Below are positions 25,094-46,621 of a stretch of DNA of 64,000 nt, in pieces (the stretch's first letter is position 1; every line of letters begins with the position of its first letter). A model generated the notes under the pieces. That model was not told the origin of the DNA. It ran no database searches and saw nothing but the letters and a program-made list of their open reading frames with translations. The DNA lies in NCBI RefSeq assembly GCF_019565455.1, contig NZ_CP067377.1, forward strand, positions 310,001-374,000, read 5' to 3'. Origin of the DNA: Flavobacterium oreochromis. Lineage in GTDB: Bacteria; Bacteroidota; Bacteroidia; Flavobacteriales; Flavobacteriaceae. Position numbers and translations under genes: made by a program.

Positions 25094-26433
25094 TTAAATT
25101 CGGCAATGTACTCTAACGGAAAAGACATTTATGGGTCCTTGTCTATCTGCATTATAACCAGGATTTACTATAAATTGATAAGTACCTGTTAAATACATCT
25201 GATTTTTGACTAACTCAGCGGAATAATAAGTTTCTACAATGTGCTCTGGAGTATAATTTAAATAACCATCTCCTAACATAAATCCTTTTCCTCCTGATTT
25301 AAGATAATTTTGATGAGGTTTTGATAATCCATTAACTAAATAGGCGAAACCTAAAACATCACTTTTTCTATTCCAACGGTTCCCATTTAAAACACCTCCT
25401 AAACTAAAACTTCTGTCTATTTCAGTAAATGCCCATGTTTCATATTTTCCATCGTTCCAACTAAAACGAGCAAAAACACCTAAATCATCAGCTAGTTCTT
25501 GTTCTGCATTTAAACCAAATCCATATTTTGTTCCTCCATATGTTCTTACATTTTTTGTATCTGGACTGATAGGATTTAAAAGGATACTTTTTTGATAATC
25601 TCCCATATAAGTTGCATTAAAAAAGTAAGGGCTCTAATGGCTCCTGGCCTTTTATTAAAGTTAAATTTATAGGTATATTCTAAATTATGAGAAGAAGATT
25701 TAGGGTAATTCCAATTCATATCATTACCATTTGCTGCCAGAGGTAATAAAGCTGTTCCATAACGCAACTCATGTTTAGGCGTTATGTATTCTAAAACAAC
25801 TGCCGGTGTATACCCACGTGTATTAGCTGCATAATCCCAAGCTCCATTGGCCATTAAACCCCAATTCATAAACTGGGTACGTGCATCATGGCTATAGCGA
25901 TTATCATCAAAAAAATCAGCAAGACTGACTTTTCCAATGGTAAATGCAAAATAGTTATTGGGTACATATTCATCTAATTGATTAAAATCACTGTGATTAT
26001 GAAAATAATTTTGAATATCTTTCTTATGTTCTCCTCTATTTAGATCGAATATTTGTTTAAAAAACATTCTTGCTACATAGATTTTGGGTTCTGGATTACC
26101 TATCCTAAATGTTTCTCCATTTGTAGCACCTCCTAAACCTAAGGCTTCGCTAAGTCCTGACCCTCCTGCTATTTCAGGATTAAGATAAATACTTGCTCCT
26201 TTCCATAATTTTGCTCCTAAATATAATGTTCCTGTAATAGAAGTTTTACTTTCATTCTCTAAAGTCAAACTATTATCCCCAGAATAAGGTGCTTTATACC
26301 CTGCTTTCGTTTGATTTATTACCGTAGTTTGTGCGTGAATAGTAAATCCTTTTCGGTGATTGATGGTATCATTAACTTGTGCAAAACCTTGTAATGCAAA
26401 TAGGATTACTGTTATATAAATTATTTTTTTCAT
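25094..26433 (-). CDS. OprB-family carbohydrate-selective-type porin, frameshifted
   Basis: Signal peptide 1-18 (QGFAQ) then a barrel of about 446 residues: IYLNPEIAGGSGLSEALG, NYFAFTIGKVSLADFFDDN and NGAWDYAANTRGYTP match the OprB-type porin pattern. The frame is broken in the A-run 25619-25624; one added base gives RALTFFNATYMGDYQK. Its start overlaps the adaptor stop. A porin inside an RND operon is unusual for the classical CzcCBA layout; it may ease solute entry or exit linked to metal stress. Confidence 0.8.
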
Positions 26434-27529
26434 TAGTCGTTTAAAGCGTCGTAAATTAATAATTGGTTATTAGTGATAACCTTTTCTCCTTCATTCAGTC
26501 CAGCAGAAATAAATGTTACATTCCCTACTTGTCTAAAAACTTCTACCTGACGTGTTTCAATATTAGAACGGGATTTAAAGATCATTACAAAGTTTTTACT
26601 TTTATCAAATATAACGGCATTCGAAGGGACTGCTAACATATAATCATTTTCTTTATAAGACAATACGATATTAGCGCGCATTTCTGGTTTTAATAAAAAT
26701 TTTGGATTATCTAGTACTATTTGAGCACTCATCGCTTTTGTTTCTGGATTAATTATGTTAAAAATTTTATCAACCTTTCCATAAAATTTTTTATCAGGAT
26801 AACTCAAGGTTGTTACTTCTGCGTTTTCACCAACTTTAACTAATTCAATATCACTTTCATTAATATTTGCAATTGCCCATACTTTATTAATTTGAGCTAT
26901 ATCAAAAATATTATCTGTTTTATCATCACGTAAAAGCGTGTTTTCATTAATAGATTTTTGAGTAATAAATCCTGCAATAGGAGCGCGAACTTCAAAAATT
27001 GATCCCGCATGCACTTGATAAATTGTATTCGTTTCTTGACTTCTTTTTAATTGAGCTAAGGCTTTATTGTAAGCACTCTTAGCTTCTAAAACATCACGCT
27101 CAGTATTTAATTTACCTTCGTACATTTCTTGAGCCGCTTTTAAATTACTTTTTGCTACAACTACTTCATTTTTTGCATCATCATAATCTTTTTGAAATCC
27201 TGCAACTGAGGTACTCTTAATTGTTGCTAATAATTGTCCTTTTTGAACATAATCTCCTAATTGAACATATACTTTTGTCACATTTCCTCCTACTACTGGA
27301 TATACTTCTATAAATTTGTTATTATCCGCTGTAATTTTTCCAAAAAATTGAATTTCATTTTTCAATTGTTCTTTTTAATCACCTTTGTTTGAGTAGTCTG
27401 AAGCATTTTATCAGTTAAAACAATACCTGTTTCTTTTTGTTCCTTTTTAGCTTCCTCTTTACAAGACACAAACATAATTGCAAATAAAACAGTTGCAACT
27501 AATAGATTATCTTTCAATATTTTTCTCAT
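26433..27529 (-). CDS. RND periplasmic adaptor (CusB/CzcB family) lipoprotein, frameshifted
   Basis: About 365 residues. The true N terminus is a lipoprotein signal with MFVSCKEEAKK (Cys24), rejoined to the body by one base in the run 27372-27376 (VIKKEQLKNEIQFFG). The body has the lipoyl/barrel-sandwich start VYPVVGGNVTKVYVQLGDYVQKGQLL, a coiled-coil hairpin (about 85-145) and the beta-barrel domain. It bridges the CzcA pump and TolC. Confidence 0.9.
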
Positions 27530-27541
27530 TTCAAAAATTAA

Positions 27542-28798
27542 TTAATGTTTAAATATTTCAACATTGGTAATATAATTAAGGTCTAATCCTGACATAATCC
27601 ATTGTTTTTTAATCTCATTTTGCTGTATAACGGCTTGATTATAGCTTTCCAAAAAGTCTGTAAACTCAAGAAGGTTTATATTTCTCTTTTGAAAATTAGA
27701 CAATATTCCTTCATATACTTTTTCTAGATCTGATGTCATATTATTTGTAATTCCACTATATTGCTGCAATTGCTGTTGCCAAACTAAATAAGCGGTTGCT
27801 AAATTAGTTTCTAATTCCTGCCTTTTAAGTTCTAAATTATTTTTACTCTGTTCTAGCTGTGCTTTAGCAAGGGCAATGTTTCCTTTGTTTTGTTTCCATA
27901 ATGGCAGAGGGACTGCAAAGGTAAGATTTATTTGATTTTTAAAAGCTCCTCCTGATTGATCGTATGCTCCTCCAAGCGTTACATCTGGTGTATTAAGTGA
28001 CTGTTGCCATTTCAAATAAAGTGCTTGACTTTCACTCATTTTTTTAGTCCATAAATATTCAGGGTTATGTTCTAATAGCTTAGCTTTCATATCATCTTTT
28101 GTAAGCAATGTACTTGTATAATTAGCTAAAAGTTCTTTTTCGTTTAAAACAGGATCTATAACCTCTGGAATACCTGTAATAAATGAAAGATTTTGTTGAC
28201 TAATAATAATATCTTTAGCTATTACGTTTTTTTCATTTCTAAGACTTAATAATAATGTCTGAAGTCTTACCACGTCTTTTAGAGCTATGTTGCCTTTTTG
28301 AGCTTGTGTATTGTAAACGTCTAACAAAAATTCTAATTTCTCTATTTGAGAAACAAGAACTTTAATTTTTTGATTATCAAAATAAATACTACAAAAATTT
28401 TGTGCTAATTGATGTTTTAAACTTAAGAGTACCTGCTGAAATTGTATTTCAGCTAATTCTGCATTAGATTTAGCAAAGGCTACTTCATTTCGTTTTTTAC
28501 CTCCCATGTAAATTAATTGCTGGATTGCAAATGCTTTTTGCCCCGCTGCTCCTGCATCAAAAATTTTTCTTTTTCTGGATTATAAAAATTTAATTCACCT
28601 GAAACTATGGGCTGCTGCCATATTTTTGCTTGTATAATTTGTGCCTTAGAAGCGTCAATATTATACTGTTGAGCAATTAATTGTAAATTATTTTTTTTCA
28701 ATGCTAATTCACAATCTTCTAATCTGAGTGCTTTTTGTGAATAAATAGGACTGAAAACAACACACAAAAAAAACCTCTTAATATTTTATTTAACATTT
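27542..28798 (-). CDS. TolC-family outer-membrane efflux protein, frameshifted
   Basis: About 419 residues after two single-base restorations: at 28559-28563 (EKFFDAGAAGQKAF) and in the A-run at 28770-28777 (signal peptide start at 28798). Helical coiled-coil repeats dominate, with LWKQNKGNIALAKAQLEQSKN typical of TolC/CzcC helices. It is the first gene of the metal-efflux operon and lies 12 nt before the adaptor gene. Confidence 0.88.
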
Positions 28799-28859: not shown

Positions 28860-29627
28860 TTATTTATTGTACCAATCAAAATTTGTTAAATAGGAAATTC
28901 TAACCGTTGGATTATTTTCTTGAATTGTATTTCCTAAATTCCAATTGTTTTGATGAATATAATTTAATTGTATTTGATGATGTGAATTTAGATTATAACC
29001 AAATCCTGCAATTATTCTATTTTGTTGAAATAGTGTTTTAGCGTCTTTTACTCCTATATTTATAAAAGCCTCATCTCCAACATTTAAGAACAGCTTAGAC
29101 TTCCCATTATCATCTTTAACTAATGGATAATTTATTACAAACATATAACGCAAACGATTTCTATAGTCATAATGATCAATTTCATAATTCCCATCTGTAT
29201 TTTTTATAGGAATCCCTACTAAACGATATTCATCACGTAACCGATTTGTAAATTTAAAATCACCACTATTTAAAACATAAGTTCCTTGTATCCAGATATG
29301 ATCTTCAGGTGTATCTGTTTTATTTATAGGAGTTTCACCATACACATAAGTATTATAATGTGAATAACCAATACTTCCTATAAAGTTTTTATGAAAATGA
29401 TAATCAATTGAAGGACGAATAAAATATTGCTGTTTTTCATCAAATCCATTAGCATAACGCATGGTTGCTTCTAAAGTAAAAGATATTTTTTTATTTAACA
29501 TATTTTTACCCATATAATGAAACCAAATATCCTTGTTATGATTTATTGTTTGAGCTTGGGTAGCTGTTCCTATGGTTATAAATAGGAGTACTAGTAGTAC
29601 CCCTATTTTTTTTAAATTAAACTTCAT
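28860..29627 (-). CDS. DUF2490 family beta-barrel protein
   Basis: A 255-residue outer-membrane-type protein. The signal peptide is about residues 1-26 (TATQAQ). The body is strand-rich with DIWFHYMGKNML, the repeated R-Y/F motifs and NRLRDEYR / NRLRYMF characteristic of DUF2490 proteins. It follows the SulP gene and is probably the last gene of the dab operon. Function unknown; as an outer-membrane barrel it may permit solute entry linked to the transporters. Confidence 0.8.
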   Translation of the reverse strand: MKFNLKKIGVLLVLLFITIGTATQAQTINHNKDIWFHYMGKNMLNKKISFTLEATMRYANGFDEKQQYFIRPSIDYHFHKNFIGSIGYSHYNTYVYGETPINKTDTPEDHIWIQGTYVLNSGDFKFTNRLRDEYRLVGIPIKNTDGNYEIDHYDYRNRLRYMFVINYPLVKDDNGKSKLFLNVGDEAFINIGVKDAKTLFQQNRIIAGFGYNLNSHHQIQLNYIHQNNWNLGNTIQENNPTVRISYLTNFDWYNK

Positions 29628-29669
29628 TGTGTCTTTTTATATGCTTTATGAAAATAAGATTTTATGAAA

Positions 29670-31283
29670 TCATTTGCTAATTTGTGTTGCTAATTTATGA
29701 CTTGACAAGGGCTTATGATTTTCTAAACCTTTAATAATTACTGTACTATTATCATGCGCTTCGTAATCATGTTTAAAATGTTCTAAACTTTCCATAACGG
29801 AATGGTCTACCAATTTTGTTCCTTTTAAATCAATGGTGATATTAAAGCCTGTAGGAATTTCTTCTAATTTTCTTTTAATCCCAAGGAAATTAGTAAAAAC
29901 AGCTGCTTTACTTATCTTAACATAATAATCATTCCCTTCAAAAGAAACTTCTGTTGGAGCTTTAAAGAATGAAGATATAGGCGTACCGTTTATAGCATGT
30001 ATAATCATTTTTAATAACATACCAGCCCCTATTCCTATCAATAAATCAGTAGCAAGAGTAAATACAATAGTCGTTAAGAAAATAGCTAATTGTTCTTTTC
30101 CTATTTCGAAAGTATGAATAAACTCTTTTGGATGCGCTAATTTATATCCTACCCCTATTAACATTGCTGCTAAAGCTGGTTTAGGAATCAAATCACTAAA
30201 CTTAACGGCTAAAAGTAAGAAAATTAAAATAAAAAATCCATGAAAAAAGTTAGCCCAACGGGTCTTACCTCCGTTATTTACATTCGCCGAAGAACGGGCA
30301 ACCTCAGAGATCATAGGTAACCCTCCTAAAACGCCTGCTACTATATTACCTAAACCAACTGCAATTAAATCTTTATTATAATCTGATTTTCGTTTAAAAG
30401 GATCCATCATATCAATAGCTTTTACAGTTAGTAAAGCTTCTAAACTACCTACTAAAGCAAACATAATAACGTATTTTACAAAGATTCCTATCTGTGATAA
30501 ACCACCAAAACTTACATTTATTGCTAAAGTATCTAATAAACCTTTCCCAAAATGTACCAAATATTTGGGAGTTCCTTTATCATCTAGTATATTTTGTAAA
30601 CCAAGTGCAAATGAAAGAGGTATTGCTACTACTAACACCACTAAAGCTGCGGGTATTTTTTTAACTAATGGATGCTTAATCATAGGCCATCCAAAAACAA
30701 TTACTAAACTTACTAAACCTACAAGCATTGCTGTTACATTAGGGTTCATTAAAGTATGTGGAATAGCACTTAATAATTCTAGTGGTTCTACCATAGGTTT
30801 TCTTTCTTCTGTTAATGGATTTTGACCTAGTAAAACGTGTATTTGTTTACTCATAATTATTAATCCAATAGCAGCTAACATACCATGTACAGCAGACAAA
30901 GGAAAGAAATCACTTAATTTTCCAAATTTTAAAACTCCAAATACTACTTGTAATACACCTGCTACTACAATTGCTCCTAATGCGTATTTCCAACCTTGTT
31001 CTCCACCACCAAACTCAGCTACAGCACCTGCTACAATGACTATTAATCCTGCAGCTGGTCCTTTAATTGTTAATTTTGACCCTGCAACTAAAGACACTAA
31101 CACACCTCCAACCATAGCAGTCACAAGACCATATATAGGTTGAAAATCAGATACTTGAGCAATCCCCATACTTAATGGTAACGCTAACAGAAACACTAAG
31201 AATCCTGATAATGCATCAGAAGAAAAATTTTCTTTTAATCCAGCTAATCCATCAGCTGGAATATTTAATTTATTTTTGCTCAT
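29670..31283 (-). CDS. SulP-family anion (bicarbonate/sulfate) transporter
   Basis: A 537-residue membrane protein. The N-terminal part (AGLKENFSSDALSGFLVFLLALP) and IKGPAAGLIVIVAGA match SulP transporters; about 12-14 membrane segments fill residues 20-430; a short STAS domain follows at about 440-537. SulP proteins linked to DabA/DabB or carbonic anhydrases are often bicarbonate carriers (BicA-like). It lies 18 nt after dabB, so a role in inorganic-carbon uptake is likely. Confidence 0.88.
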   Translation of the reverse strand: MSKNKLNIPADGLAGLKENFSSDALSGFLVFLLALPLSMGIAQVSDFQPIYGLVTAMVGGVLVSLVAGSKLTIKGPAAGLIVIVAGAVAEFGGGEQGWKYALGAIVVAGVLQVVFGVLKFGKLSDFFPLSAVHGMLAAIGLIIMSKQIHVLLGQNPLTEERKPMVEPLELLSAIPHTLMNPNVTAMLVGLVSLVIVFGWPMIKHPLVKKIPAALVVLVVAIPLSFALGLQNILDDKGTPKYLVHFGKGLLDTLAINVSFGGLSQIGIFVKYVIMFALVGSLEALLTVKAIDMMDPFKRKSDYNKDLIAVGLGNIVAGVLGGLPMISEVARSSANVNNGGKTRWANFFHGFFILIFLLLAVKFSDLIPKPALAAMLIGVGYKLAHPKEFIHTFEIGKEQLAIFLTTIVFTLATDLLIGIGAGMLLKMIIHAINGTPISSFFKAPTEVSFEGNDYYVKISKAAVFTNFLGIKRKLEEIPTGFNITIDLKGTKLVDHSVMESLEHFKHDYEAHDNSTVIIKGLENHKPLSSHKLATQISK

Positions 31284-31300
31284 ACTATATTTTTTTATTT

Positions 31301-33169
31301 CTAAGAAGATTTATACGGTAATTCATGATAGGTTTTTATGTGAGGTCCTAAAAACAAACGAGTATAAATACGAATACCCGCAATTCCAGACACTACGAAG
31401 CTACTAGCTATAAAAAAAGCTAGTACAACCTGATCACTTTCTATATGACTAAACAAAAGGTCTTCACCTATAAAAGTTGTTGTAATAGGGAATCCTGTTA
31501 CACCAAGAGCTGCAACTAAAAAGAAGAATGCAAATTTAGGATGTTCATATACATGTCCTAAATATTGATTTAATGATGTTTCATTTTCTATTTTATTTAA
31601 CTTCAGAAGTGCTATATAGCCTAAAACTCCAGCAATTATAATTCCTGTGAGATATAAAGAAACTTCATATAAATCAACTTTTTCATTAAATAAAATGGCC
31701 AAAACAATCCAAAAATGATTAAATATTATCAAAACCCAAGCTACAAAAGGGCTTTTTCGTTCTGAAAATGATTTAAAAACAGATATTAAACCAATAAAAG
31801 CAAAAAATTCAGGTAGTCTATGATTTATTTGATCAGATAATCTCGATTGACTATTTAATAATAATATACCTCCTATATAAACTGGCACAAAAAGAATAAA
31901 TGTTCTTTTAAGATTTAAGAAATTTAAAAGTTTACCTATAGACTTAAGAGGTTTCCATAAAAAGAAGTTTACTATTTTTTCTAGGTTAAACTCCTTTACA
32001 CTTAATATATAAAGCGCATATTCTAATCGTTTTGGCAAAGAGTCTTCAAATGTATGCTCTACTGGTTCATAATGGTAAAATTGCTCTCTTATTAAATAAC
32101 TTACAACTGAAGGGGAAACTAAAAGCTGATATGTTCTTAAAAAAGCATTACCTGCAAAATGTAATAGAGCTAAATTATCAAAACCAAGTGCTATTTCTAT
32201 AAAAATCAATCCTATTTGAGAAATAGAACTATATGCGATCTGACTTTTAACAGAAGATTGTACGCGAGCCATAAAAGTTGCTACCAAACTAGTCAATACT
32301 CCCATTACAACAATAGCAATTCGCAATGAAGTTTGATGCTCCCAAAAAGGATGTGTGCGTAACATTAAGAATACACCTAAATGTACAGATAAAGATCCAT
32401 AAAAAATTGCACTTGATGGTGTAGGTCCTTCCATTGCACGAGGTAACCAAGAGGAAAAAGGAACCTGAGCTGATTTAACAGCGGCTGCACATACTAAACA
32501 TAAGCCAATAAAAACACCAATAAACGAATGCGTTTGAAGATGTTCACTTACTAACTCATAATTGTGCATCTTCATAAAGGTAATATTCTCATGGAATAAA
32601 TGATGACTTGCCCACATAGCTAACAATAAACCAACATCTCCAATACGATAAATAGAAAATACCTTAAACGCATTCTTTACAGGCAAATAACGTTCTCTAT
32701 AAAATGCAATCAATAAAAAAGATGAAATCCCGATAATTTCCCATCCTATAAATAAAGTTTCAAAATTTCCTGATAAAACAGCTAAATTATACCCAAAAAG
32801 AAAAATAAAACAGTCATAAAAAAACGTTTATATCCTTTTTCTCTGTGCAAATAATAACGACTGTAAGTAGTAACCATAGAAATTAAAAGGGCACCTACAA
32901 ACAAGTAAACTGCTGTTACTTTGTCAAAAAGAAATCTATAAAAAACTCATAATGATTTGTTTTCACCAAGCTAACCTCAAAAAGATTGAAAGGTTTTGCT
33001 CCTTTTAGTCCCCAATAAAATAAAAATATAGTTAACGCTAATAATTGAATTAAAACTGTACTTAAAGCAGTCCGAGATAACCACGATTCTTTTTTTCAGG
33101 TAACCAAAAACTAATAAAAAAACCAGCAAAAGGAATTAACACAAATGCTATTAAAATTTCATTCCACAT
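31301..33169 (-). CDS. dabB: DabB-type proton-channel subunit (NuoL/MrpA-like), frameshifted
   Basis: About 623 residues after three T bases are restored (around 33090, 32931 and 32795). It is a NuoL-like protein with many membrane helices; the core has GDVGLLLAMWA, KSAQVPFSSWLPRAMEGPTPSSA and the Lys/Glu residues of antiporter-type proton channels. DabB partners DabA in the energised inorganic-carbon pump: DabB passes cations inward to drive directional CO2 hydration. It starts 12 nt after the dabA stop. Confidence 0.9.
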
Positions 33170-33180
33170 ATCCTTAGCTT

Positions 33181-35669
33181 TTATTTAATGATACCCACTT
33201 TCAAATTATCCATACTAGTTTGTGTGTATTGAAGTATATTATCAATATTTCCTAGTGTTACTTCTATTGGTTTATACAACTCAAAGTTTCCTTTAACAAA
33301 TCGAAAAAGTTGTTTAGTTTCTGGATGAAATACAACTAGATTAACCCATTCGTTATAAAACCATTCATAAGTTGCTGGATTTTTAGTAATAGCATACTGA
33401 ACTACTTCTGGAAAATGTTCAACTATTACTAATAATCGAACAGGATCGTGTACTTCTATCATTTGATTAGGTAATCCAGGACGTAAATCTCCATCAATAC
33501 CGTTAGCAACTCCTATTAACCCCATGACATTATGAGGTAGTTTAGAACCAGCTCCTAATTTGTGATTATCTACTCTAGAAAAATAATACTCTAGATTAAT
33601 ACCACCTCCTACTGGTGCTACTGCATTTAATATACCAGCCAAATAATCGCCCTTAGGGTCTACTTGATAATCAAATGAATTAAGAAAAGAACGTCTATCT
33701 AAGAACAATTGTTCAGAGACTGTTCTCCTCCCTACTATACACATAGCATTAGTAGCATGATTTAATTCCGGACGTGGTTCAAACAAAGAAACAGAACGGA
33801 GTTTAACAGACTCATGTACTTTCTTTAAGTCATCCGATTTAGTAATAATTTCAAAACGACGAGAACGTTCTACCGCATTTTTATCTAAAGCTCTTTCAAA
33901 GGTTTTCTTATTTTTAGTGTGGATTAATAAATTCGTTTCCGTCAATATTTTCTCATCATAAAACTCAATTTCGTCACGAGTTGTATCATGCAATGCTGGT
34001 AAGAACTGAGTTGTATTTGGAATATTTATACCCTTTTTTAACAAAAGAGCTCTTACTTCTGGATGGTTAGCGGCAAAACATAATACTTTAGCATTTACAG
34101 AACTAGGTCTTCCACTACAAGCACCACAATCATAACCTGCAAAATGTGTATTATTTACACTAGTAGCTCCATGCCCTACTACATAAACTATAGGGGCAAA
34201 ATCTTTTACAAGCCCTATAGATCTAAACAATCCTTCTACACGAGTAGTCATTTCTTCTACTGTAAAGCCTACTTGTAATCCATCTTGTTGTAAACCATTT
34301 TCATTTTCAATCACTAATTGTGATTTTTTATTCAAGTGTTTAAAAGAAGCCGAAGTTGCAGGCGTTATTGCAGGTTTAAAAATATTTAAGAATAATTTAA
34401 AAGCTGATGCAAAGCCTAATGACTGGCTAATTAACCAACCAAACAATAAGGAATGAGTATGTTTATGATAATGAAGATCCGTAGCATGTTTTTTCTTTCT
34501 TGGTAATTCTTTTACCAAATATTTTGGTGTTACTGGAGCAGGGCAAAGTTTTGTAAAAAATTTACCTTCTATAGGCTGATAAAAAAACTCAAAATTAAAA
34601 AATGCTGCTGTACCAAAAGTTTGCGCATTAGAATCTTCTTCTTCTATATATCGTCTAAGCGAGCACTCTCTATCATCCATACAAAACATTGCCTGAAAAC
34701 TAGTTTGCTCCTTACGCATCATTTCTGCATTGGTTTGTTGTATTCCTAATAGCGCTTGATTATAAAAGCTCCATTCAAAAGCCTCTTGCCATATAGATAA
34801 TACTTCAAAATATTCTGAATATTCTGGAACAGAAAAAATATTTTCGGGTACTTCATGTAAATTATGAGCAATGGGTTTCCAATTTTCACCGAATTTTTGA
34901 TCTAAAACATCTATTTCTAATAACAGTTCAAACTTAATCAGTTCTTGTAATGTAATAGTTTTTTTAGCTAATAATGAAACGGGATTCTGCTCTAATGTTG
35001 CAACCATTCCACTCCATCCTGGATGTGAAAACTGTTGATCAAATAAGTAGTGTGTATAATAGGCTTCATTACCTACAACAATATGTAATAATTCTTCTAT
35101 GCTCACCTCTTTTTGCAATAATGCTTTTGCTCTTGGTGTCTTAAAGAATCCTGTAATTCCATTTTTATCTAACTCTCTTATAGAGGCTAAAAAACCTTTA
35201 TCATGAACTGGAAAAGACCAAACTGAAATTCCTTGATCTAAATAACTACACAATACTCTAAATAAGATACCATGCGTTGCTTTATCCAAATTCATAGCAT
35301 AGTGCTGTTTCCATAAAGAACGAACACGACCTATTTTAGAAGACAAAGATTCATCATATATCTCGTTTAATACTTTGTGTTGCCATAATTGATAAGAATA
35401 TTCTAGCTTGCGTTCGTACAATACTTTATCTAAAATTGCTTTAGGTATTTCACCATTAGCATATTTCGCTCTGAATTCTGCCAATGACAAATAGGTTTTA
35501 TATCCAAATACTACGGAAGCTTGATGCAAAGCATCGAAAAAGATTGTTTTTGAAACGCATGCAAAGTATTATGATGCACAAAGTCTTTTAACGGATTTTG
35601 TGCAGGCAAATAATGCGATAACTCGTGAAGTACATCATGCTCCACGAATTGCTGATTCGTTAAATTCAT
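33181..35669 (-). CDS. dabA: DabA (DUF2309/UPF0753) inorganic-carbon pump subunit, frameshifted
   Basis: 829 residues after one T is restored near 35550 ([12 protein letters not shown]); the true start is at 35669. The zinc site resembles a buried beta-carbonic anhydrase: [10 protein letters not shown] gives the Cys and the Asp-x-Arg dyad, and GHGATSVNN with YDCGACSG gives the His and second Cys. DabA forms a membrane-bound complex with DabB that makes bicarbonate from CO2 in one direction. It heads the operon dabA-dabB-sulP-DUF2490, with an inverted repeat upstream at 35702-35717. Confidence 0.93.
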
Positions 35670-35701
35670 TTTGGGGAAATATTTAATTAATACCTCATTT
35701 T

Positions 35702-35717
35702 TGATGTAAATACATCA
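35702..35717. promoter_or_regulatory. Candidate operator palindrome upstream of dabA
   Basis: TGATGTA-AA-TACATCA, a perfect 7-bp inverted repeat with a 2-nt spacer, lies 33 nt upstream of the dabA start in a 60-nt gap. It is suited to bind a dimeric regulator, but no regulator gene is nearby and chance cannot be excluded in AT-rich DNA. Confidence 0.35.
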
Positions 35718-35730
35718 TTTAGGGAATTAA

Positions 35731-36126
35731 TTAAACTAGATCATACTTCCAATTACAGTAGAGTATGTAAAGAGGCTGGTTATAGATAAGTCTTAAACTC
35801 TTATAACCAATTATGTTTAAAGATTTTTTAAATAAAAGTAATTGAAGGGCAAAAACAAAATCTTTAGACGAAATAAACTCTTCTATACTATCATCTTCAA
35901 GATCAAGTTCTGCTAATTCTTCATCTTCATCATCTAGATTTTGATTAATAGAGAGGATCTTAGATTTAGCTGGACTCTCCTTTTCTATTTTTACTGGAAT
36001 TTTTGAAAAACTCTCTACATTACAGTAACTTTTTCCAGAAATCGAAAACAACAATAAAATGGCTAAGAGAAATGAAAAACATCCTCTTTTTTCAAAAGCT
36101 ATTTTATTATTTAACAATTTAAACAT
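35731..36126 (-). CDS. Small exported acidic protein, unknown
   Basis: A 131-residue protein: a basic N terminus, a hydrophobic signal or anchor (FLLAILLLFSISG), a strongly acidic stretch at about 65-85 (DDEDEELAELDLEDD), then a hydrophobic C-terminal part with LLLFKKSLNIIGYK and NQPLYILY. It follows the DedA gene in the same direction and lies before dabA. A protein of similar layout is encoded at 39922-40215 before the second SulP gene. No function is recognised. Confidence 0.6.
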   Translation of the reverse strand: MFKLLNNKIAFEKRGCFSFLLAILLLFSISGKSYCNVESFSKIPVKIEKESPAKSKILSINQNLDDEDEELAELDLEDDSIEEFISSKDFVFALQLLLFKKSLNIIGYKSLRLIYNQPLYILYCNWKYDLV

Positions 36127-36173
36127 CCGATTTCGTTAGCTTAATTTTATAGCAAACAAACTTATGCAATTTT

Positions 36174-36850
36174 TTATTCAATATGTGCTTTCTTTTTAAA
36201 TATTTTCCATAAAACAGGAAATGTAGTAAAGGCTACGATTGCTATTACTATAATTTCTATGTAATGTTTTAAATCAATCCCAAAGCTTTGTAAAAACAAA
36301 GCGTGAAGATAATGGCCTGCAAAAATCATGGAAAAAGCCCATAAAAAAGACCCTACTATATTATAAAACATAAATTTCTTTTTATCCATTTGAACGATTC
36401 CAGCTACTACAGGTGCAAATGTTCTAACAATTGGCAAGAAACGGGCAAATACAATTGCACGATTACCATATTTATCAAAAAAATCTTTCGCTTGATATAA
36501 ATATTTTTTCTTAAAAAGAATGTATCTTTTTGATTGTATAAATAATTTCCACTTTTAGCACCAAACCAATAGCCTGCCATGTTCCCTATAACTCCCATAA
36601 GTCCAACTAAGAAAGCAAAAACAGTAACATTCATAAAATCATTTCCTAAAGAAATTTGACTCATCAATGTTTCGCTATAAATTCCTGCAAGGAAAAGTAA
36701 GCTATCACCTGGTAAAAAGAAACCCGCTAATAATCCTGTTTCCGCAAAAACAATAAATAAAACTACAATTAATCCTATTTTAATTCCACCAAACTCCAAT
36801 AAAATATAGAATTCAGGATTTAATAATTGCAACCAATTGAAATCTTTCAT
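36174..36850 (-). CDS. DedA-family membrane protein (VTT domain), frameshifted
   Basis: About 225 residues after one base is restored in the run near 36513. It shows the DedA pattern: FAETGLLAGFFLPGDSLLFLAG, then ARFLPIVRTFAPVVAG (the conserved R-x-x-P-x-x-R-x-x-x-P region) and several membrane segments. DedA proteins flip lipid carriers (undecaprenyl phosphate, phosphatidylethanolamine) and affect proton homeostasis. Placement between carbonic anhydrase and Dab genes is curious and may reflect pH balance. Confidence 0.87.
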
Positions 36851-36868
36851 AAAACTTTAAACCTTTAA

Positions 36869-36904
36869 AAGGGCGAAGGTACTATTTTTAGTACAATCAC
36901 CCTT
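36869..36904 (-). terminator. Imperfect hairpin after the carbonic anhydrase operon
   Basis: AAGGGcGaagGTACTA pairs imperfectly with TAGTACaatcaCCCTT across a 4-nt loop; on the minus strand it is followed by a short T-rich stretch. It may end the sulP-can-can transcript. Confidence 0.4.
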
Positions 36905-36934
36905 ATTTTATTCATTAAATTAATCATAAAATGA

Positions 36935-37570
36935 TTAAACATCTAATTGATACATTTCATGTAAATCAGAATTAGAAGAAAAGTTAACTTGCAAATCAGT
37001 TACATATCCTGAATTTAAACCATATACCCAACCATGTAAATATAACTCCTGTCCATTTTTCCAGGCTGTTTGTACAATTGAAGTTTTGGCTAAATTTAGA
37101 ACTTGTTCCTTAACATTTAGTTCTACAAATTTATTAAACCGCTCTTCTTCATTTTCTATAGAGTTAAGTTTTTCTTTGTTAAAACGATAAATATCTTTAA
37201 TATGTCTAATCCAGTTATCTATGACACCAAAAGAACTATTTCCCATAGCTGCTTTTACTCCTCCACATCCATAATGACCACAGACAATCACATGACGTAC
37301 TTTTAATACATTAACCGCATAATCTAATACGCTCAACATATTCATATCTGTATGTACTACCATATTAGCTATATTACGATGAACAAAAACTTCTCCTGCT
37401 TTTGTACCTGTAATTTCATTAGCAGGCACTCGACTATCCGAACACCCTATCCACAATAAAGGCGGATTTTGTCCTTGGGCTAAGTCTTTAAAGAAATTAG
37501 GGTCTTGATTTAATTTTGTATCTACCCATTTTTTATTATTATCTAGTAAACTTTTATAAAAATCACTCAT
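36935..37570 (-). CDS. Beta-carbonic anhydrase
   Basis: A 211-residue cytoplasmic enzyme. Zinc ligands Cys43 (IGCSDSR, with the Asp45-Arg47 dyad), His99 and Cys102 (VCGHYGCGG) are all present. It interconverts CO2 and bicarbonate. It follows a second, different carbonic anhydrase gene by 4 nt, in an operon with a SulP transporter. Confidence 0.94.
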   Translation of the reverse strand: MSDFYKSLLDNNKKWVDTKLNQDPNFFKDLAQGQNPPLLWIGCSDSRVPANEITGTKAGEVFVHRNIANMVVHTDMNMLSVLDYAVNVLKVRHVIVCGHYGCGGVKAAMGNSSFGVIDNWIRHIKDIYRFNKEKLNSIENEEERFNKFVELNVKEQVLNLAKTSIVQTAWKNGQELYLHGWVYGLNSGYVTDLQVNFSSNSDLHEMYQLDV

Positions 37571-37574
37571 TTTC

Positions 37575-38258
37575 TTATTTAATTAATTCTTTTAGATTAA
37601 AATTAACCTCTAAATCTGATTTGATAAAAATGCAGTCTTTATAAAATTCTACCAAACCAGTTTCTATATTATACATTGCTCCTACAATTCCTATTTCTCC
37701 ATTTTCAACCATCTGTTTTAAAATATAACTCTTTTGTAGAATGGATTTCACCGTTCTCTTTACATTAATCTGCGCTACATTTTCAACAAATTCACTATTC
37801 TTAGAAGTTCTATTTTCTTTTGTTGTTTGTTCTTCATAAACAGCTGGCTGTAATTTAGAGAGTAATTCAGTTAAATTTCCCATTTCCACATGATCACAAG
37901 CTCCTTTTACAGCCCCGCATTTACTATGGCCTAGAACCACTATTAGTTTAGAACCTGCTATTTTACAAGCAAACTCCATACTTCCTAAAATATCAGTATT
38001 AACAACATTTCCTGCAATTCTCACAGAAAAAACATCACCTAAACCTTGATCAAAAATTAACTCGGCAGAAGTACGACTATCTATACAACTTAAAATAGTT
38101 GCAAAGGGCCATTGTCCGTCCCGTGTATCATTAACCTGTTCTAATAAATTTCTATGAAGTTTTAAATTATTTACAAATCGTTCATTTCCTTCTTTTAATA
38201 TTTCTAATGCTTTATTAGGACTTATTTGAGCTTGTATTTCTTTATTTAGAGTTCTCAT
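37575..38258 (-). CDS. Beta-carbonic anhydrase (second type)
   Basis: A 227-residue enzyme with zinc ligands Cys58 (LSCIDSR, Asp60-Arg62 dyad), His111 and Cys114 (LGHSKCGAVKGA). It is of a different subgroup from its neighbour: the N-terminal ALEILKEGNERFV and the insertion around 120-155 are typical of the SulP-linked class. The start is 2 nt after the SulP stop, so transporter and enzyme are coupled, in line with bicarbonate handling at the membrane. Confidence 0.94.
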   Translation of the reverse strand: MRTLNKEIQAQISPNKALEILKEGNERFVNNLKLHRNLLEQVNDTRDGQWPFATILSCIDSRTSAELIFDQGLGDVFSVRIAGNVVNTDILGSMEFACKIAGSKLIVVLGHSKCGAVKGACDHVEMGNLTELLSKLQPAVYEEQTTKENRTSKNSEFVENVAQINVKRTVKSILQKSYILKQMVENGEIGIVGAMYNIETGLVEFYKDCIFIKSDLEVNFNLKELIK

Positions 38259-38260
38259 TA

Positions 38261-39862
38261 CTATTTAATGCTATGTTTCACATAAATATGCTTATCTTCT
38301 TCTCCTGTATTTTCTAGTTCATATCCTTCTTTAAAACCAACTAGCTTTACTTGAATGTTTTCTTCTTTAGCTCTGATATTTTTAAACTCTTTAATCAAAT
38401 CTAATACATCATGTGCTATATAAACAGTATCAGAAGCATTAATAACTACAGAAGAATTTTCAGGAATGGAAGCAAGAGAAACTTTAATAGCTGCTTTGTT
38501 TAAAAAGGAAACTTCTTGTGCTAAATCAATATGAATAAGATCTCCTTCAGTATAATTTTCTCTTCTAAAATTATATGCTCGTTGCATATTCCCTTTTAAA
38601 ATAAAAATGATGCTTATAACTAAACCTAATGCAACTCCTTTTAATAAATCTGTAAATACAACACAAATCATAGTCGCAATAAAAGGTATGAATTGATATT
38701 TCCCTCTTTCATAAAAATGTTTAATGACTTTAGGATTTGCTAACTTGTACCCTACTAGGAGTAACACAGCAGCTAATGTTGCCAATGGAATCATATTCAA
38801 AATAGAGGGAATTAGAATAGCACAAACAATTAATAAAACACCGTGAAAAATAGCAGCCATTTTAGTTTGAGCTCCTGCATCAGCATTAGCCGTTGTACGG
38901 ACTACTACAGAAGTCATAGGTAATCCTCCTAAAAGCGCACTAACAAGATTGCCAATTCCTTGTGCCTTTAACTCATTATTAGTATCTGTATAGCGTTTAT
39001 GCTTATCCATCCGATCAGCCGCTTCTATACACAATAAGGTTTCTATAGAAGCTACAACGGCAATTGTAACACCTACCATCCAAACTTTTTGATTAGTAAA
39101 TTGTGAGAAATCAGGTAATATAAAACTATCTTTAAACTCTCCAAATGACTTAGGCACAGGTAATTTTACCAAATGACCATCTAGAACGGCTAAGGGAGAT
39201 TCTGATATTACAAAAATATAATTCAATATAATCCCTACTAATACAGCTACTAAAGCGGGAGGAAGTAATTTTAATTTTTTTAAAAAAGAGATCTTGGGCC
39301 ACAAAATCAAAATAAGCAACGAAATAACGGCTATTAGAGTAGCTCCTAAATGTATGTTTCCTATAACAGAAAACAATTCTGAAAAAGTATTTTCCCCATC
39401 AGGCTGTAAAAAAGCGAGATCTCCCTCGTAATCTTTATCATAACCAAAAGCGTGAGGCAATTGTTTTAAAAAAATAATAACACCTATACCTCCTAACATC
39501 CCTTCAATTACATTATTAGGAAAGTAATTAGAAATGGCTCCTGCTTTTAAGAATCCTAAAATTATTTGAATAAGACCTGCAATAAAAACCGCTAATAAAA
39601 AAACATTAAAACCTCCTAAATCTGTTTTTGCAGTTAGGATAATTGCTGTAAGTCCAGCAGCGGGGCCAGAAACAGACAAATGTGAATTACTTAAATACCC
39701 TACTACTATCCCACCTACTACTCCTGAAATAATACCTGCAAAAAGAGGCGCTCCAGAAGCTAATGCAATACCTAAACACAAAGGTAATGCAACTAAAAAA
39801 ACCACAAGTCCTGCTGGCAAATCAGAACCAAGGTTTCCAAAAATATTTACTTTTTTTGTCAT
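38261..39862 (-). CDS. SulP-family transporter linked to carbonic anhydrases
   Basis: A 533-residue SulP transporter: NLGSDLPAGLVVFLVALPLCLG, LSVSGPAAGLTAIILTA, about 12 membrane helices and a short C-terminal STAS-like tail (about 440-533). It shares the opening and SGPAAGL motifs with the SulP at 29670-31283 but is clearly a distinct paralogue. Direct linkage to two beta-carbonic anhydrases points to bicarbonate as substrate. Confidence 0.9.
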   Translation of the reverse strand: MTKKVNIFGNLGSDLPAGLVVFLVALPLCLGIALASGAPLFAGIISGVVGGIVVGYLSNSHLSVSGPAAGLTAIILTAKTDLGGFNVFLLAVFIAGLIQIILGFLKAGAISNYFPNNVIEGMLGGIGVIIFLKQLPHAFGYDKDYEGDLAFLQPDGENTFSELFSVIGNIHLGATLIAVISLLILILWPKISFLKKLKLLPPALVAVLVGIILNYIFVISESPLAVLDGHLVKLPVPKSFGEFKDSFILPDFSQFTNQKVWMVGVTIAVVASIETLLCIEAADRMDKHKRYTDTNNELKAQGIGNLVSALLGGLPMTSVVVRTTANADAGAQTKMAAIFHGVLLIVCAILIPSILNMIPLATLAAVLLLVGYKLANPKVIKHFYERGKYQFIPFIATMICVVFTDLLKGVALGLVISIIFILKGNMQRAYNFRRENYTEGDLIHIDLAQEVSFLNKAAIKVSLASIPENSSVVINASDTVYIAHDVLDLIKEFKNIRAKEENIQVKLVGFKEGYELENTGEEDKHIYVKHSIK

Positions 39863-39921
39863 CCTAATTTAATTTAAATCCATAAAAATATGAGCACAAA
39901 AGCACTCATCATCAAAATGAT

Positions 39922-40215
39922 TTAAACTAATTTTGGAGGTGTATAGTGAAGTAATAAATGAGCTAAATAATCTTTTAACAAATAAATAGAATTGTTTGTT
40001 CTCTCCTTTTTAGTAAGAATTACTAACTCATTTGTAAGGGAAACAAAAAGAAATTCCATTTTAACTTCTTTTGTTTCTTTTGAATCTTCATTGTCTTCTT
40101 CAAGCAATAACCAAGAGACTTTACTCTCTTTTTCATTCTCTATCAAAATTATAATACTTGGCAGAAATTGAAAAGAAAGAAAAGAAAACAACAATATGCT
40201 TGTTAAAAACTTCAT
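39922..40215 (-). CDS. Small exported acidic protein upstream of SulP
   Basis: A 97-residue protein with an N-terminal hydrophobic signal (LTSILLFSFLSFQFLPSI), an acidic segment at about 37-52 (EEDNEDSKETKE) and a C-terminal end DYLAHLLLHYTPPKLV. The layout (signal, acid stretch, aromatic C terminus) resembles the 131-residue protein at 35731. It is the first gene of the SulP/carbonic anhydrase operon. No function is recognised. Confidence 0.6.
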   Translation of the reverse strand: MKFLTSILLFSFLSFQFLPSIIILIENEKESKVSWLLLEEDNEDSKETKEVKMEFLFVSLTNELVILTKKERTNNSIYLLKDYLAHLLLHYTPPKLV

Positions 40216-40425
40216 TAGACGAAGTTAACATTTTAATATCTGAGAACAAATAATGATAAAGTTTTTTAACAAAAAATATAGAACCTTTTATGTATAACAC
40301 ATCTTCTTACTATATAATTTTCTTTGTTTAGACAAAACAGTAAACAAGTCATTTACTATATTTATCATAGGAATTTATTAAACCTATAGGGAAGAATATT
40401 AACCAAACTGGAGTTTATAAAACAC
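40216..40425. other. Non-coding gap, no supported gene
   Basis: AT-rich sequence upstream of the SulP operon. It should hold the promoter of the small acidic protein gene; I see no clear TAnnTTTG box with a matching -33 element and no gene. Confidence 0.5.
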
Positions 40426-40463
40426 AAAAACAGATATTAAGTTATGTCATAATATCTGTTTTT
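40426..40463 (-). terminator. Terminator of the alpha-carbonic anhydrase gene
   Basis: A perfect 14-bp inverted repeat AAAAACAGATATTA / TAATATCTGTTTTT with a 10-nt loop and U-run on either strand, about 80 nt after the stop of the alpha-carbonic anhydrase gene. Confidence 0.85.
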
Positions 40464-40544
40464 TATTATATTAACAGCTAAAAATAGATTCTCTTGTTTT
40501 AAAGCGATAAAGGAAAAACAAAATTTTATCTATACTATCATTTT

Positions 40545-41423
40545 TTACTTCATAAGATATACTTTCCTCTTATTTAACGGTTGAATATTCCTAAAATTAG
40601 GTCTAGTATAAATTGATTTATAGAAATCAAATTGAGAAGAGGAAACTTCTTGTTTAGACTTAAACACAAACCAAGTCACAGGACCTCCGTTTGTAACATT
40701 AGAATTTGCACCAAAATTCGGTGTCGTAAGAGACCCACTATAAGAATAAATTTTATTTATATCTTCAGGCAAAATTCCCGGAATAGATAACGAAATATTA
40801 GGAGAATTTACCTGATCAGCTTGAGTTGGAGAATTCTCAAACAACTTTTGAATAGTTGAATTTACAGATCCTAATTCTACCAAAACTCCTAAAACAGCAT
40901 ACGAATTATCTGCTGATTTATTTACAAGATGAATTTCCATTTTACTGTATTCTCCATCAATTTTATGTTCGCTATTATAATGAAAATGTATATTGACCAA
41001 ATTATATTTTTTCTTACTGACAACAATGTAATTATTATCTGTATCTGTCTTATTAAGATGAATTTTCAACTCTTCATTAGCATGATTTGTAATTTCACTT
41101 AAAGTCATTCTACCATAATGAATCTCTAAATCACTTCTATTTACTGAATTTACATTTGAAGTCTGAATATCAATAGGAGTCTGAGATGCTACTACAAACT
41201 GAGGAAAATTAGCTGTAAAAATAGGAGTACTAATTAAGTCCGTAGGATATTTCATTGAATTAACTGATGAATCAGTACCTTTGTCTAAATCCGTAACATA
41301 GTCATTATTATCAACACTACAGGAAATGAGTAACCCTTGAACAGATATGGCCATAAAAAACGCCATAGTTGATTTACGAACAGATTCTTGAATTTCTAAA
41401 AAATAAAACTTGTTTGTCTTCAT
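40545..41423 (-). CDS. Alpha-carbonic anhydrase-like lipoprotein
   Basis: A 292-residue protein. A long N-terminal leader ends in a lipobox, GLLISC (Cys35), so it is probably outer-membrane or periplasmic. The body follows the alpha-carbonic anhydrase pattern: QTPIDIQTSNV (for QSPINI), IHFHYNSEHKIDG with zinc ligands His146 and His148, MEIHLVN with Glu163 and His165, and YSGSLTTPNF keeping the Thr-Thr gate. The family's PPC after Thr-Thr is changed to PNF and the usual HFHW Trp is Tyr. It is a third carbonic anhydrase type next to the SulP/CA operon. Confidence 0.87.
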   Translation of the reverse strand: MKTNKFYFLEIQESVRKSTMAFFMAISVQGLLISCSVDNNDYVTDLDKGTDSSVNSMKYPTDLISTPIFTANFPQFVVASQTPIDIQTSNVNSVNRSDLEIHYGRMTLSEITNHANEELKIHLNKTDTDNNYIVVSKKKYNLVNIHFHYNSEHKIDGEYSKMEIHLVNKSADNSYAVLGVLVELGSVNSTIQKLFENSPTQADQVNSPNISLSIPGILPEDINKIYSYSGSLTTPNFGANSNVTNGGPVTWFVFKSKQEVSSSQFDFYKSIYTRPNFRNIQPLNKRKVYLMK

Positions 41424-42074: not shown

Positions 42075-42443
42075 TTAATTTCGTTCATATCTACAACAAC
42101 CGTGAAGTTTTTCATAATCTTCTTGAATTGCTTTTACATTTTTAGTATCGTGCCCTATTTTCCCAATTGCTTTTTCAACATCTAATAATGTGCATTTTTC
42201 TTCATTTAAAACTAAATGCAACATTTTTCCTTCAATATCATACTGTGCCATTTTTACTCCTGAAATTGAAAAAGCAGCTCTTTCAATTCGTTTTTTACAC
42301 ATTTCACAATTTCCATTTACTTCTATATTATATTTTGCATTTTTATTTTTTTTAACTCCAATAAATTCAGATCCTACTATTTTTTCTTGAGCAAAACCAA
42401 AAACACTTATAAATAATACTAATACCAGAACTATATTTTTCAT
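42075..42443 (-). CDS. Heavy-metal-associated (HMA) domain protein
   Basis: A 122-residue exported protein: signal peptide 1-18 (FGFAQ) and an HMA fold with NCEMCKKRIERAAFSI, where CxxC binds Cu(I) or another soft metal, plus a C-terminal HGCCRYERN tail with a Cys pair. It is likely a periplasmic copper-binding protein. It follows the TonB receptor gene in an apparent metal operon with the HYC_CC_PP protein. Confidence 0.87.
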   Translation of the reverse strand: MKNIVLVLVLFISVFGFAQEKIVGSEFIGVKKNKNAKYNIEVNGNCEMCKKRIERAAFSISGVKMAQYDIEGKMLHLVLNEEKCTLLDVEKAIGKIGHDTKNVKAIQEDYEKLHGCCRYERN

Positions 42444-42483
42444 TTTTTTATATTTTATTATTAAACAAAAACCTTAACTAAAA

Positions 42484-44507
42484 TTACTTCACTTTAAAAC
42501 GCAAACCAGCATAAATCATTTGACCAAAAATAGGCGCATACACAACAGAACTATCAAAATTTGTTCCAAACGGATTTTCTGAACCTATGATCGCTTTTTG
42601 TTGTCTATAATTCCCTAAATTCTCTACACCTGCATAAACTTCAAATGCAGAAGAAAAAGTACGTGATACTTGAGAATTCATCAAAATAAAATTGGGTGAA
42701 AACTCTGGTAATTCAGCATTAGTATTAGACAATTGCTGATTGCCAATCCAATTTAAAGTAAAATCAAAACGCCATTGTTTTCCTTTTTTACTCATATGCG
42801 TTGCATATTCTATATTAGAAAAGAAACGATGTTTTGCCTGCAAAGGATGTTGATATCTACCTAAATAATAATCTGTTTTAACATCATAAAATTTATATGC
42901 TGAACGTAAATTGAGCTGCTTAACAATTTCAACATTAAATTCTATTTGAAAACTATTAGCGAACGAATTACCTATTAAATTATAAAAAGAAACCTCTTGA
43001 TATGATTGCAAAATATCTACAACAACTTGATTTTGAAAATCTGTACGATAAAAATCAAGTGAAGCATCAGCATTCATACTAAAAATTTTAAATTTTTGCA
43101 GAAATCCAACACCATAATTCCAAGCAATTTCCGGATCAAGACCATAAATTTTACCTAGATTATTTAATACAACAAATTTTCTATTACTTGCAAAAAGGAC
43201 TTGATTTTCTGCAAAAATATTTGCAGCACGTTTTCCTCTTCCTGCTGAGATCCTTAACACTGCATCCTTCCAAGGATTATAACGAGCATGAATACGAGGA
43301 GTAATAAAAAAACCTAACCGATTATGATAATCTACACGACCTCCAAAAATAACACTAAAATTATCTGTATTATCATAGGTATATTCAAAAAAGGCTCCTA
43401 TTCCATTATCCTTCCTACTTACATCTTCTCCTAAAACAAATTCATTATAATGATCTAACGTAAAATTCAAACCTGTACTAAATTTATTCATTGTATTATG
43501 AATAATAGAATTAAATATTAGGTTAGAATAAAAACTATTTTGTTTTATAGTATAAGTTTTTAATCCAAAATAAGAATTTTGATCATGTATGGTAAATGCA
43601 TTTTGAAAACCAATACTCTGATAGGGAGCTTCTTTCCAAACATACCCAATTTTTGACGAAAAATCAATTCGATCTGTATTAATCTCGGAACCCCATACTT
43701 TTCCACTCAATTTATCTGTTACGGGATTAAAAAACATTTGTCCTGTTTGTTTTTCATCTTTCATATAACGAAAATTCAAAAAACCAACCCAACCTGTTTC
43801 TGGATTAGAATACTGCCAACGGTTCATCAGATTTATTTGACGACCTAATGGATTATCTAAAAAACCATCTCCGTTCATATCTTTTTTTGAAACGCGCATA
43901 TTGCTATGAACTAGCAGCATAGTCCCCCATTTAGAACCTATCTTTTCAGAAAGATGTGTATTTAATTCAAAACGGGAATCAGTAGAACCATAAAAGTTTA
44001 AATAGAAAGAACTTGAACGAAGTGAATTCAAGCTTGCAAGCTCTTTGATTGGTTTTAATAATTCTGTATTAATTTGCCCTGAAATACTTTCATAACCATT
44101 AATTACACTTCCTGCTCCTTTAGTTACTTGAATACTTTCTATCCATGTACCAGGAGTAAAAGACATACCAAATACTTGTGAAGCCCCCGAACAGAAGGTA
44201 TATTTTCTTCAGCTATCAGTAAATAAGGAGAAGTTAATCCCAGCATTTTTATCTGTTTAGTACCCGTTAACGCATCTGAATAGTTAACATCAATACTAGG
44301 ATTCGTTTCAAAACTCTCTGCTAAATTACAGCAAGCTGCTTTTAGCAATTCTTTACTTGATAAAACAGTAGTATTAGTTGCCTTTAATAAAGATTTTTCT
44401 ATTTTATCACGCTTAGATTGGATTGTTATTGTTTTTAAACTATCCAACCTCTGCCCAAATAGCAAAGTACTAATGAGCATAAATACACATATATAAATGA
44501 CTTTCAT
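42484..44507 (-). CDS. TonB-dependent outer-membrane receptor, frameshifted
   Basis: About 674 residues after one G is restored in the G/C run 44184-44188 (SVRGASQVFGMSF). The signal peptide is 1-18; the plug includes LKAACCNLAESFETNPSIDVNYSDALTGTKQIKMLGL and GAGSVINGYESISGQIN, and the barrel ends in GLRFKVK. There is no carboxypeptidase-like domain. Neighbours (HMA protein, Cys-rich HYC_CC_PP protein) point to a metal, probably copper, as ligand or as inducing signal. Confidence 0.9.
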
Positions 44508-44573
44508 CTTAAAATTAATTAGTAAAACACTCCTTTTTCGGAAAATCCTCCAAAATAGATATGACTAATTAAT

Positions 44574-46559: not shown

Positions 46560-46567
46560 TAACTTTG
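46560..46567 (+). promoter_or_regulatory. -7 promoter box of rpsO
   Basis: TAACTTTG followed by C, 54 nt before the rpsO start and downstream of the GAF stop; fits the Bacteroidetes consensus. Confidence 0.55.
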
Positions 46568-46621
46568 CGTCCGTATTGAGAAAATCTCAATCTGCATAAT
46601 AATCATTTAAATAATATTAGC

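Follow-up and report, generated by a model that had tools for sequence, protein, structure and literature searches.

Background

DAB2 of Halothiobacillus neapolitanus (PDB 9rd0; PMC13144422) combines a DabA protein (PF10070), which has a Cys-His-Cys zinc site and an Asp-Arg dyad, with an adjoining NuoL-like membrane subunit, DabB. In accounting for the direction of CO2 hydration, the paper on its structure (Lo et al. 2026, PMC13144422) points to the absence of a transition-state residue, to a glutamate in the finger and to the loss of a glutamate present in NuoL, and ties the sites of Leu658, Glu444 and Ile151 to proton coupling: E444Q and E444A abolished DAB2 activity, I151E halved the growth yield, and Leu658 was replaceable in vivo by Gln, Gly, Ala or Asn. 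Here we examine a locus of inorganic-carbon genes, dabA and dabB among them, in a 64,000-nucleotide stretch of Flavobacterium oreochromis (hereafter the window; positions 310,001 to 374,000 of NZ_CP067377.1, a single contig of 3.54 Mb). Its DAB resembles DAB2 in all the general traits just named, but differs in gene order, which is dabA-dabB, and in the residues tied to coupling.

Other described systems are comparable in gene content. DAB1 of H. neapolitanus (hneap_0907-0909) has DabA numbered first, as in the window, if the order is taken from the locus numbers in PMC13144422; in DAB1 a small third gene is numbered between, whereas in the window about a dozen bases separate the dabA stop from the start of the adjoining PF00361 gene, dabB. 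MpsAB of Staphylococcus also unites PF10070 and PF00361 and is presented as a carbon supplier of heterotrophs in PMC8552792 and PMC8567241. In the former, Fan et al. argue that a carbonic anhydrase (CA) and a bicarbonate supplier rarely coexist, and that co-expression brought no benefit in staphylococci. For Bacteroidota, in which a SulP gene is followed by a beta-CA gene, PMC4148732 and PMC3587595 deal with CA, with anaplerotic fixation and with a transporter for bicarbonate. The window shows the same succession with two beta-CAs, but there the pair is joined to a DAB, in a genome in which we did not find PF00311, the family of phosphoenolpyruvate (PEP) carboxylase.

We find that DABs, judged by their residues, split into two classes that track gene order, and that the DAB genes of the window belong to one of two stacked modules. 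We consider it probable that these modules jointly keep up the bicarbonate and CO2 supply of a heterotroph under air-level CO2, by means of a DAB that couples unlike DAB2.

Two classes of DAB follow gene order

Pairs in the window's order and pairs in the order dabB-dabA were compared over open segments of at least 600 residues, the window's own pair and the DabA of F. covae (L017) being left out. The 84 dabA-dabB pairs, a set that leans toward the window because loci L003 to L070 were drawn with patterns from its DabA, all have His at the position of DAB2 Leu658 and Glu at that of DabB Ile151, and only one has Glu444. The 44 dabB-dabA pairs, which come from Flavobacteriaceae and from seven plasmid matches chosen from 123 records, have Leu at 658 without exception, never Glu at DabB 151 (0/44), and Glu444 in 42 cases. 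Some loci were one genome taken twice; once near-identical DabA sequences were removed, 127 of 134 remained (82 dabA-dabB, 39 dabB-dabA and six without a DabB in reach), and the residues split in the same way, with His in all six of the last group. When sequences are grouped by identity to F. columnare DabA, His658 occurs in 88 of the 89 that are at least 40% identical (Asn in one) and in 4 of the 36 below 40%. The comparison at position 444 is a sequence alignment over a short stretch, anchored by Gly447 (88/90 and 44/44), because the finger is modelled with low confidence in the DabA structure (blocks 391-440 at pLDDT 46-55). A Foldseek search with this model gave no match below E 0.001, and DAB2 was not among the matches listed.

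The window's DabA has His at 658 and Gln at 444, Gln being the commonest replacement of Glu444 in its class. For DabB, Glu at 151 was read from F. columnare (L009), as the window's dabB is broken around that site; with this proviso, none of the three residues that mark the DAB2 subclass is present. The class further differs from DAB2 in having Tyr for DabB His260 (80/81), mostly Asn for His343, and Arg for Lys347, and it keeps the equivalents of DabB Lys310 and His339 and, with few exceptions, the NuoL regulatory Glu-Arg and Asp-Lys pairs in DabB. The zinc ligands Cys351, His524 and Cys539 and the dyad Asp353-Arg355 are all kept in the window. Gaps aside, the 91 DabA sequences at least 40% identical retain them as well (Cys351 90/90, His524 90/90, Cys539 89/89, Asp353 90/90, Arg355 89/90). 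The window's DAB keeps the zinc chemistry but is at once without all the features used to explain DAB2's proton coupling, the DabB feature being taken from relatives.

DABs of the His class were seen in Bacteroidota, Planctomycetota (anammox bacteria included), Nitrotoga and Competibacteraceae. In the Planctomycetota loci L034, L060 and L061, Kuenenia and Brocadia among them, two oppositely oriented DABs are both of the His class, and the second copy is only 29-31% identical to the window's DabA. This class may turn out to be the same as a subtype already described, since it was set beside DAB1 and MpsAB by gene content and order. A protein search aimed at placing it as DAB1 did not show DabA1 among the matches listed: no H. 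neapolitanus name figured among these 120, most of which are unnamed.

Two modules at one chromosomal site

The carbon genes of the window all lie on the minus strand and are transcribed in the order alpha-CA, Ac97, SulP2, betaCA2, betaCA1, DedA, Ac131, dabA, dabB, SulP1, DUF2490 (Table 1). An earlier sequence-only reading had placed them between 28860 and 41423, and Pfam searches bear it out: the DAB, two SulPs, two beta-CAs, the alpha-CA and DUF2490 all fall within these 12.6 kb, DedA only through a match below cut-off. Of the two acidic exported proteins in that reading, the open reading frames (ORFs) are present; the label itself (Ac97 and Ac131, after their 97 and 131 residues) comes from reading the sequence and has no family match behind it. 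Both PF00484 (beta-CA) matches of the genome, its sole PF00194 (alpha-CA) match and its sole DabA are gathered here, which is more than chance.

DabA was found in 36 of 299 Flavobacterium genomes, and the 35 neighbourhoods other than the window's own comprise 21 of its class and 14 of the other class. Not one of the 21 carries the whole gene string. A TonB receptor-HMA pair adjoins 17 of them, with groEL on the far side in most, where the contig reaches; these 17 have Ac131-dabA-dabB-SulP1-DUF2490 or a variant missing a piece, L147 and L149 being a variant with an additional DedA gene. Four DabA-negative relatives in the genus have the same upstream edge and continue as HMA-Ac97-SulP2-betaCA2-betaCA1-DedA, without dabAB. 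In three of these (L194-L196) DUF2490 comes after DedA and groEL further on; in the fourth (L197) DedA precedes an Ac131-like gene, then three efflux genes and the end of a DUF2490 gene. The locus looks like two modules, usually found separately, that are stacked at a single site between TonB receptor-HMA and groEL. Among the genomes examined, both modules occur at this site only in the F. columnare group, which is fish-associated.

The nearest named relatives of the contig among the genomes scanned, F. columnare, F. davisii and F. covae, are 81-84% identical to it in DNA (aligned parts) and 90-91% in DabA. The stacked arrangement recurs in F. covae (L017) and in F. davisii (L010), where about 2.9 kb of other small, unrelated ORFs (L010 6482-9393) separate DedA from Ac131. 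The alpha-CA is an addition in three of the four group members, the window, L010 and L017 (the window's copy is 74-75% identical to the other two), and was seen at this locus in these alone; PF00194 occurs in 19 of the 299 genus genomes, and the one other genome that has it together with DabA, G479, has the two genes some 600 kb apart. In F. columnare NBRC 100251 (L009), neither the alpha-CA nor Ac97 was found over the stretch examined, SulP2 is without its first 162 residues and SulP1 is in two frames; unrelated ORFs at L009 1448-6144 occupy the place expected for the start of SulP2, Ac97 and the alpha-CA. The window's SulP1 is 91-93% identical to that of F. davisii, but its identity to the F. 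columnare and F. covae proteins is mostly 65-68%, with 79% in the first 95 residues of L009's; as DabA is about 90-91% identical to all three, SulP1 was seemingly swapped in place.

Gene association across Bacteroidota

Neighbours were counted for loci with 6 kb on both sides of dabA (55 dabA-dabB and 14 dabB-dabA). Within this distance, a SulP occurs in 46 of the 55 versus one of the 14, DUF2490 in 24 versus none, and a beta-CA in 7 versus one. A second SulP and a beta-CA lie near dabAB, in other gene orders, in other lineages (L012, L013, L051, L063, L069), one SulP and a beta-CA in L057, and SulP2-betaCA2 directly upstream of dabA in Flavobacterium L136 and L137. The repeated presence of SulP, and more rarely of beta-CA, next to dabAB in other Bacteroidota makes a functional link likely.

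A SulP2-like gene is present in 285 of 299 Flavobacterium genomes (the protein query also catches other SulPs); with the window's locus counted, 28 of the 30 best SulP2 loci carry a same-strand beta-CA within the 1.5-kb flank, and in 12 of the 30 an Ac97-like ORF adjoins SulP2. The BicA-like gene and the CA of Polaribacter MED152 form a SulP-beta-CA pair of this kind. Inside and outside the genus, DUF2490 also stands between SulP and betaCA2 (L169, L170, L172, L176, L177, L178, L183, L199, L202, L206, L211 and L137), and among these loci only L137 has a DAB in the examined flank. Ac131 clusters with ORFs of 26 other loci, which have in common a C-terminus like LYxL(Y/F)CxW(K/R).

The structure model of DUF2490 is a barrel of the outer-membrane type, a reading based on VIA-align rows; Foldseek returned nine matches at E <= 0.001, with low TM-scores. 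By this model and its PF10677 match, DUF2490 qualifies as a putative porin, for which PMC4827864 has an entry, TC 1.B.81. The claim of the sequence-only reading that the system spans both membranes is reasonable insofar as the predicted barrel supports it. The family is widespread, with matches in 105 of 296 phylum genomes and six in the window's own genome, and of its 30 best phylum loci eight have SulP or beta-CA genes within their 1.5-kb flanks (L199, L202, L204, L206, L209, L211, L220, L224), so that DUF2490 was dropped as a dedicated carbon gene.

MpsAB is said to occur rarely with CA, whereas 34 of the 36 DabA-positive Flavobacterium genomes carry PF00484, and the idea of a DAB acting in place of CA was set aside. 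The two exceptions, G264 (L133) and G408 (L149), which are among the eight of 299 genus genomes without PF00484, are natural cases in which the DAB may be the main supplier.

Genes of the locus and its flanks

In the alpha-CA, the three-His pattern and the lipobox come from reading the sequence. The half of the split DedA gene other than that in Table 1 gave no match in the Pfam search.

Table 1. Genes of the carbon locus and its upstream edge, in window positions
Feature	Position	Strand	Family match or remark
alpha-CA, lipoprotein-like N-terminus	40545..41423	-	PF00194 (Carb_anhydrase) 94.7 bits, cut-off 27
Ac97, small acidic exported protein	39922..40215	-	no Pfam or NCBIfam family
SulP2 anion carrier	38261..39862	-	PF00916 (Sulfate_transp)
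betaCA2, NF011765-type beta-CA	37575..38258	-	PF00484 (Pro_CA); NF011765 258.6, cut-off 221
betaCA1, NF007756 carbonate dehydratase	36935..37570	-	PF00484 (Pro_CA); NF007756 265.5, cut-off 251
DedA/VTT-domain membrane protein, two frames	36174..36850	-	VTT 30.2 bits (better half), below cut-off 33.9
Ac131, small acidic exported protein, just upstream of dabA	35731..36126	-	no Pfam or NCBIfam family
dabA	33181..35669	-	main frame 33181-35529, N-terminus in another frame; PF10070 676 bits, cut-off 25
dabB	31301..33169	-	long frame 31301-32713, N-terminal part broken over frames; PF00361 (Proton_antipo_M)
SulP1 anion carrier	29670..31283	-	PF00916 (Sulfate_transp)
DUF2490, predicted outer-membrane beta barrel	28860..29627	-	PF10677 147.7 bits, cut-off 29.8
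HMA protein and TonB receptor (two frames), upstream site edge	42075..44507	-	

Directly downstream of DUF2490, OprB-like, HlyD/CusB and split OEP genes (25576-28767) resemble a metal-efflux set, and a small Cys-rich ORF accompanies the TonB receptor and HMA genes upstream (42075-44816). A link with metal efflux was dropped, as HMA and the TonB receptor lie upstream in most loci, with or without a DAB, and are read as syntenic neighbours. An S15-Flavobacteria ribosomal leader is found at 46560-46624 (Rfam RF03161, 63.2 bits).

Discussion

The likeliest role of the locus is the supply of bicarbonate and CO2 for heterotrophic carboxylations, because neither RuBisCO nor PEP carboxylase was found in the genome. 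The absence of a RuBisCO match agrees with the description of the host, in the sequence-only reading, as an apparent heterotroph with inorganic-carbon genes; rhodopsin (PF01036) gave no match either, in a search in which no control gave a match. In the mechanism that we propose, DabA-DabB, as a vectorial CO2 hydratase, would make cytoplasmic bicarbonate, SulP1 and SulP2 would carry bicarbonate or another anion through the inner membrane, CO2 and bicarbonate would be interconverted on either side of it by the two beta-CAs in the cytoplasm and the alpha-CA facing the periplasm, and the DUF2490 barrel would let anions pass the outer membrane. A DAB of the dabA-dabB class, with no finger glutamate, a beta-CA-like His at the transition-state position and a NuoL-type Glu in DabB, would probably couple proton movement to CO2 hydration unlike DAB2. 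These functions, their direction and the physiological role are our reading of the gene content, the module boundaries in relatives, the class residues and the predicted barrel.

Several points weigh against this proposal. The functions and the substrate of the SulPs are predicted from sequence, and both SulPs fall far short of the BicA equivalog NF050096 (119.9 bits for SulP1 and 150.7 for SulP2, cut-off 880). A beta-CA lies near dabA in few loci of the window's class, and a CA next to a bicarbonate supplier could be wasteful, in view of Fan et al. (PMC8552792). The losses in L009 indicate that SulP1, SulP2, the alpha-CA and Ac97 may be dispensable. As Leu658 can be replaced in DAB2 without loss in vivo, its change need not matter, and dabA, dabB and dedA are broken in the window, some of the breaks being shared in position with L017 and L010.

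As to what the locus is, the sequence-only reading saw one dedicated unit for CO2 and bicarbonate acquisition across both membranes, which we hold to be improbable. All the carbon genes are on one strand and the genome has no PF00484 or PF00194 match outside this locus, but the halves occur apart in Flavobacterium relatives, which partly refutes that reading on its own terms, other ORFs separate them in F. davisii and parts are missing in L009, and the idea of a single operon was dropped accordingly. What is supported of that reading are inorganic-carbon genes in an organism with no RuBisCO match, together with the tendency of SulP to adjoin dabAB in one class and hardly in the other. Still less probable is that the locus is decaying in this lineage, with dabA, dabB and dedA as pseudogenes. 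The sequence-only reading was silent on the breaks in all three: the first 44 or so codons of dabA are in another frame, some 150 N-terminal codons of dabB are broken, and dedA extends over two frames. In F. covae (L017) the frame of dabA and dedA changes at about the same residues, dabB is broken at similar places in both L010 and L017, and SulP1 and SulP2 of L009 are incomplete. However, the breaks in dabA and dabB, where inspected, fall at homopolymer runs, and splits also affect genes outside the carbon set, namely an efflux gene and the one for the TonB receptor; in the window itself the frames of the beta-CAs, SulPs and DUF2490 are open. Whole copies are frequent in the F. columnare group, since dabA, dabB and dedA are all whole in L009 and a full-length DabA cluster 99% identical to L009 DabA represents 38 member sequences (P0043). 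Breaks at shared positions are what systematic homopolymer errors in long-read assemblies would give, but they would equally follow from a defect that was inherited; of the two, systematic assembly error is likelier than decay.

As to what the proteins do, the SulPs could carry sulfate, dicarboxylates or another anion, the neighbourhood then serving ion or pH balance and not carbon supply. Their best NCBIfam scores are to DauA and sulP, all below cut-off, and the BicA model is far below; yet the frequent pairing of SulP with beta-CA (28/30) and with DAB (46/55) makes this alternative unlikely. A more serious contender, somewhat short of an even chance, is that the dabA-dabB class works just like DAB2, its residue differences being neutral and compensated elsewhere. 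The conserved zinc site, Asp-Arg dyad and DabB Lys310 and His339 equivalents would fit, as would the tolerance of DAB2 for replacements of Leu658. Against it, the differences are linked and follow the class split, with no exception for His658 and DabB Glu151, with Glu444 lost in 83 of 84 and with Tyr present at DabB 260 in 80 of 81, and in Lo et al. mutations at 444 abolished activity and one at 151 halved the growth yield. Either DAB2's features are not central to coupling, or coupling takes another course in this class; the window's class may thus couple protons to CO2 hydration differently from DAB2. Only tentatively would we go further, to two mechanistic classes of DAB. The window's, with the canonical beta-CA His and a DabA finger free of any conserved acidic residue, would then be either an intrinsically active CA restrained by a NuoL-like gate or a complex with another coupling route, such as DabB alone or another ion, and would act together with a neighbouring SulP and often an outer-membrane barrel.

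Returning to the joint supply of bicarbonate and CO2 by stacked modules, we found no paper on these Flavobacterium genes or on the residue split in the literature searched, outside of which most subscription journals lie. That a SulP so often lies beside this class suggests a system for carbon supply in heterotrophic Bacteroidota, of which we found no description there. A large natural class in which all three DAB2 features are reversed offers a ready test of the coupling proposal, and bears on the question of what makes CO2 hydration by a DAB directional.

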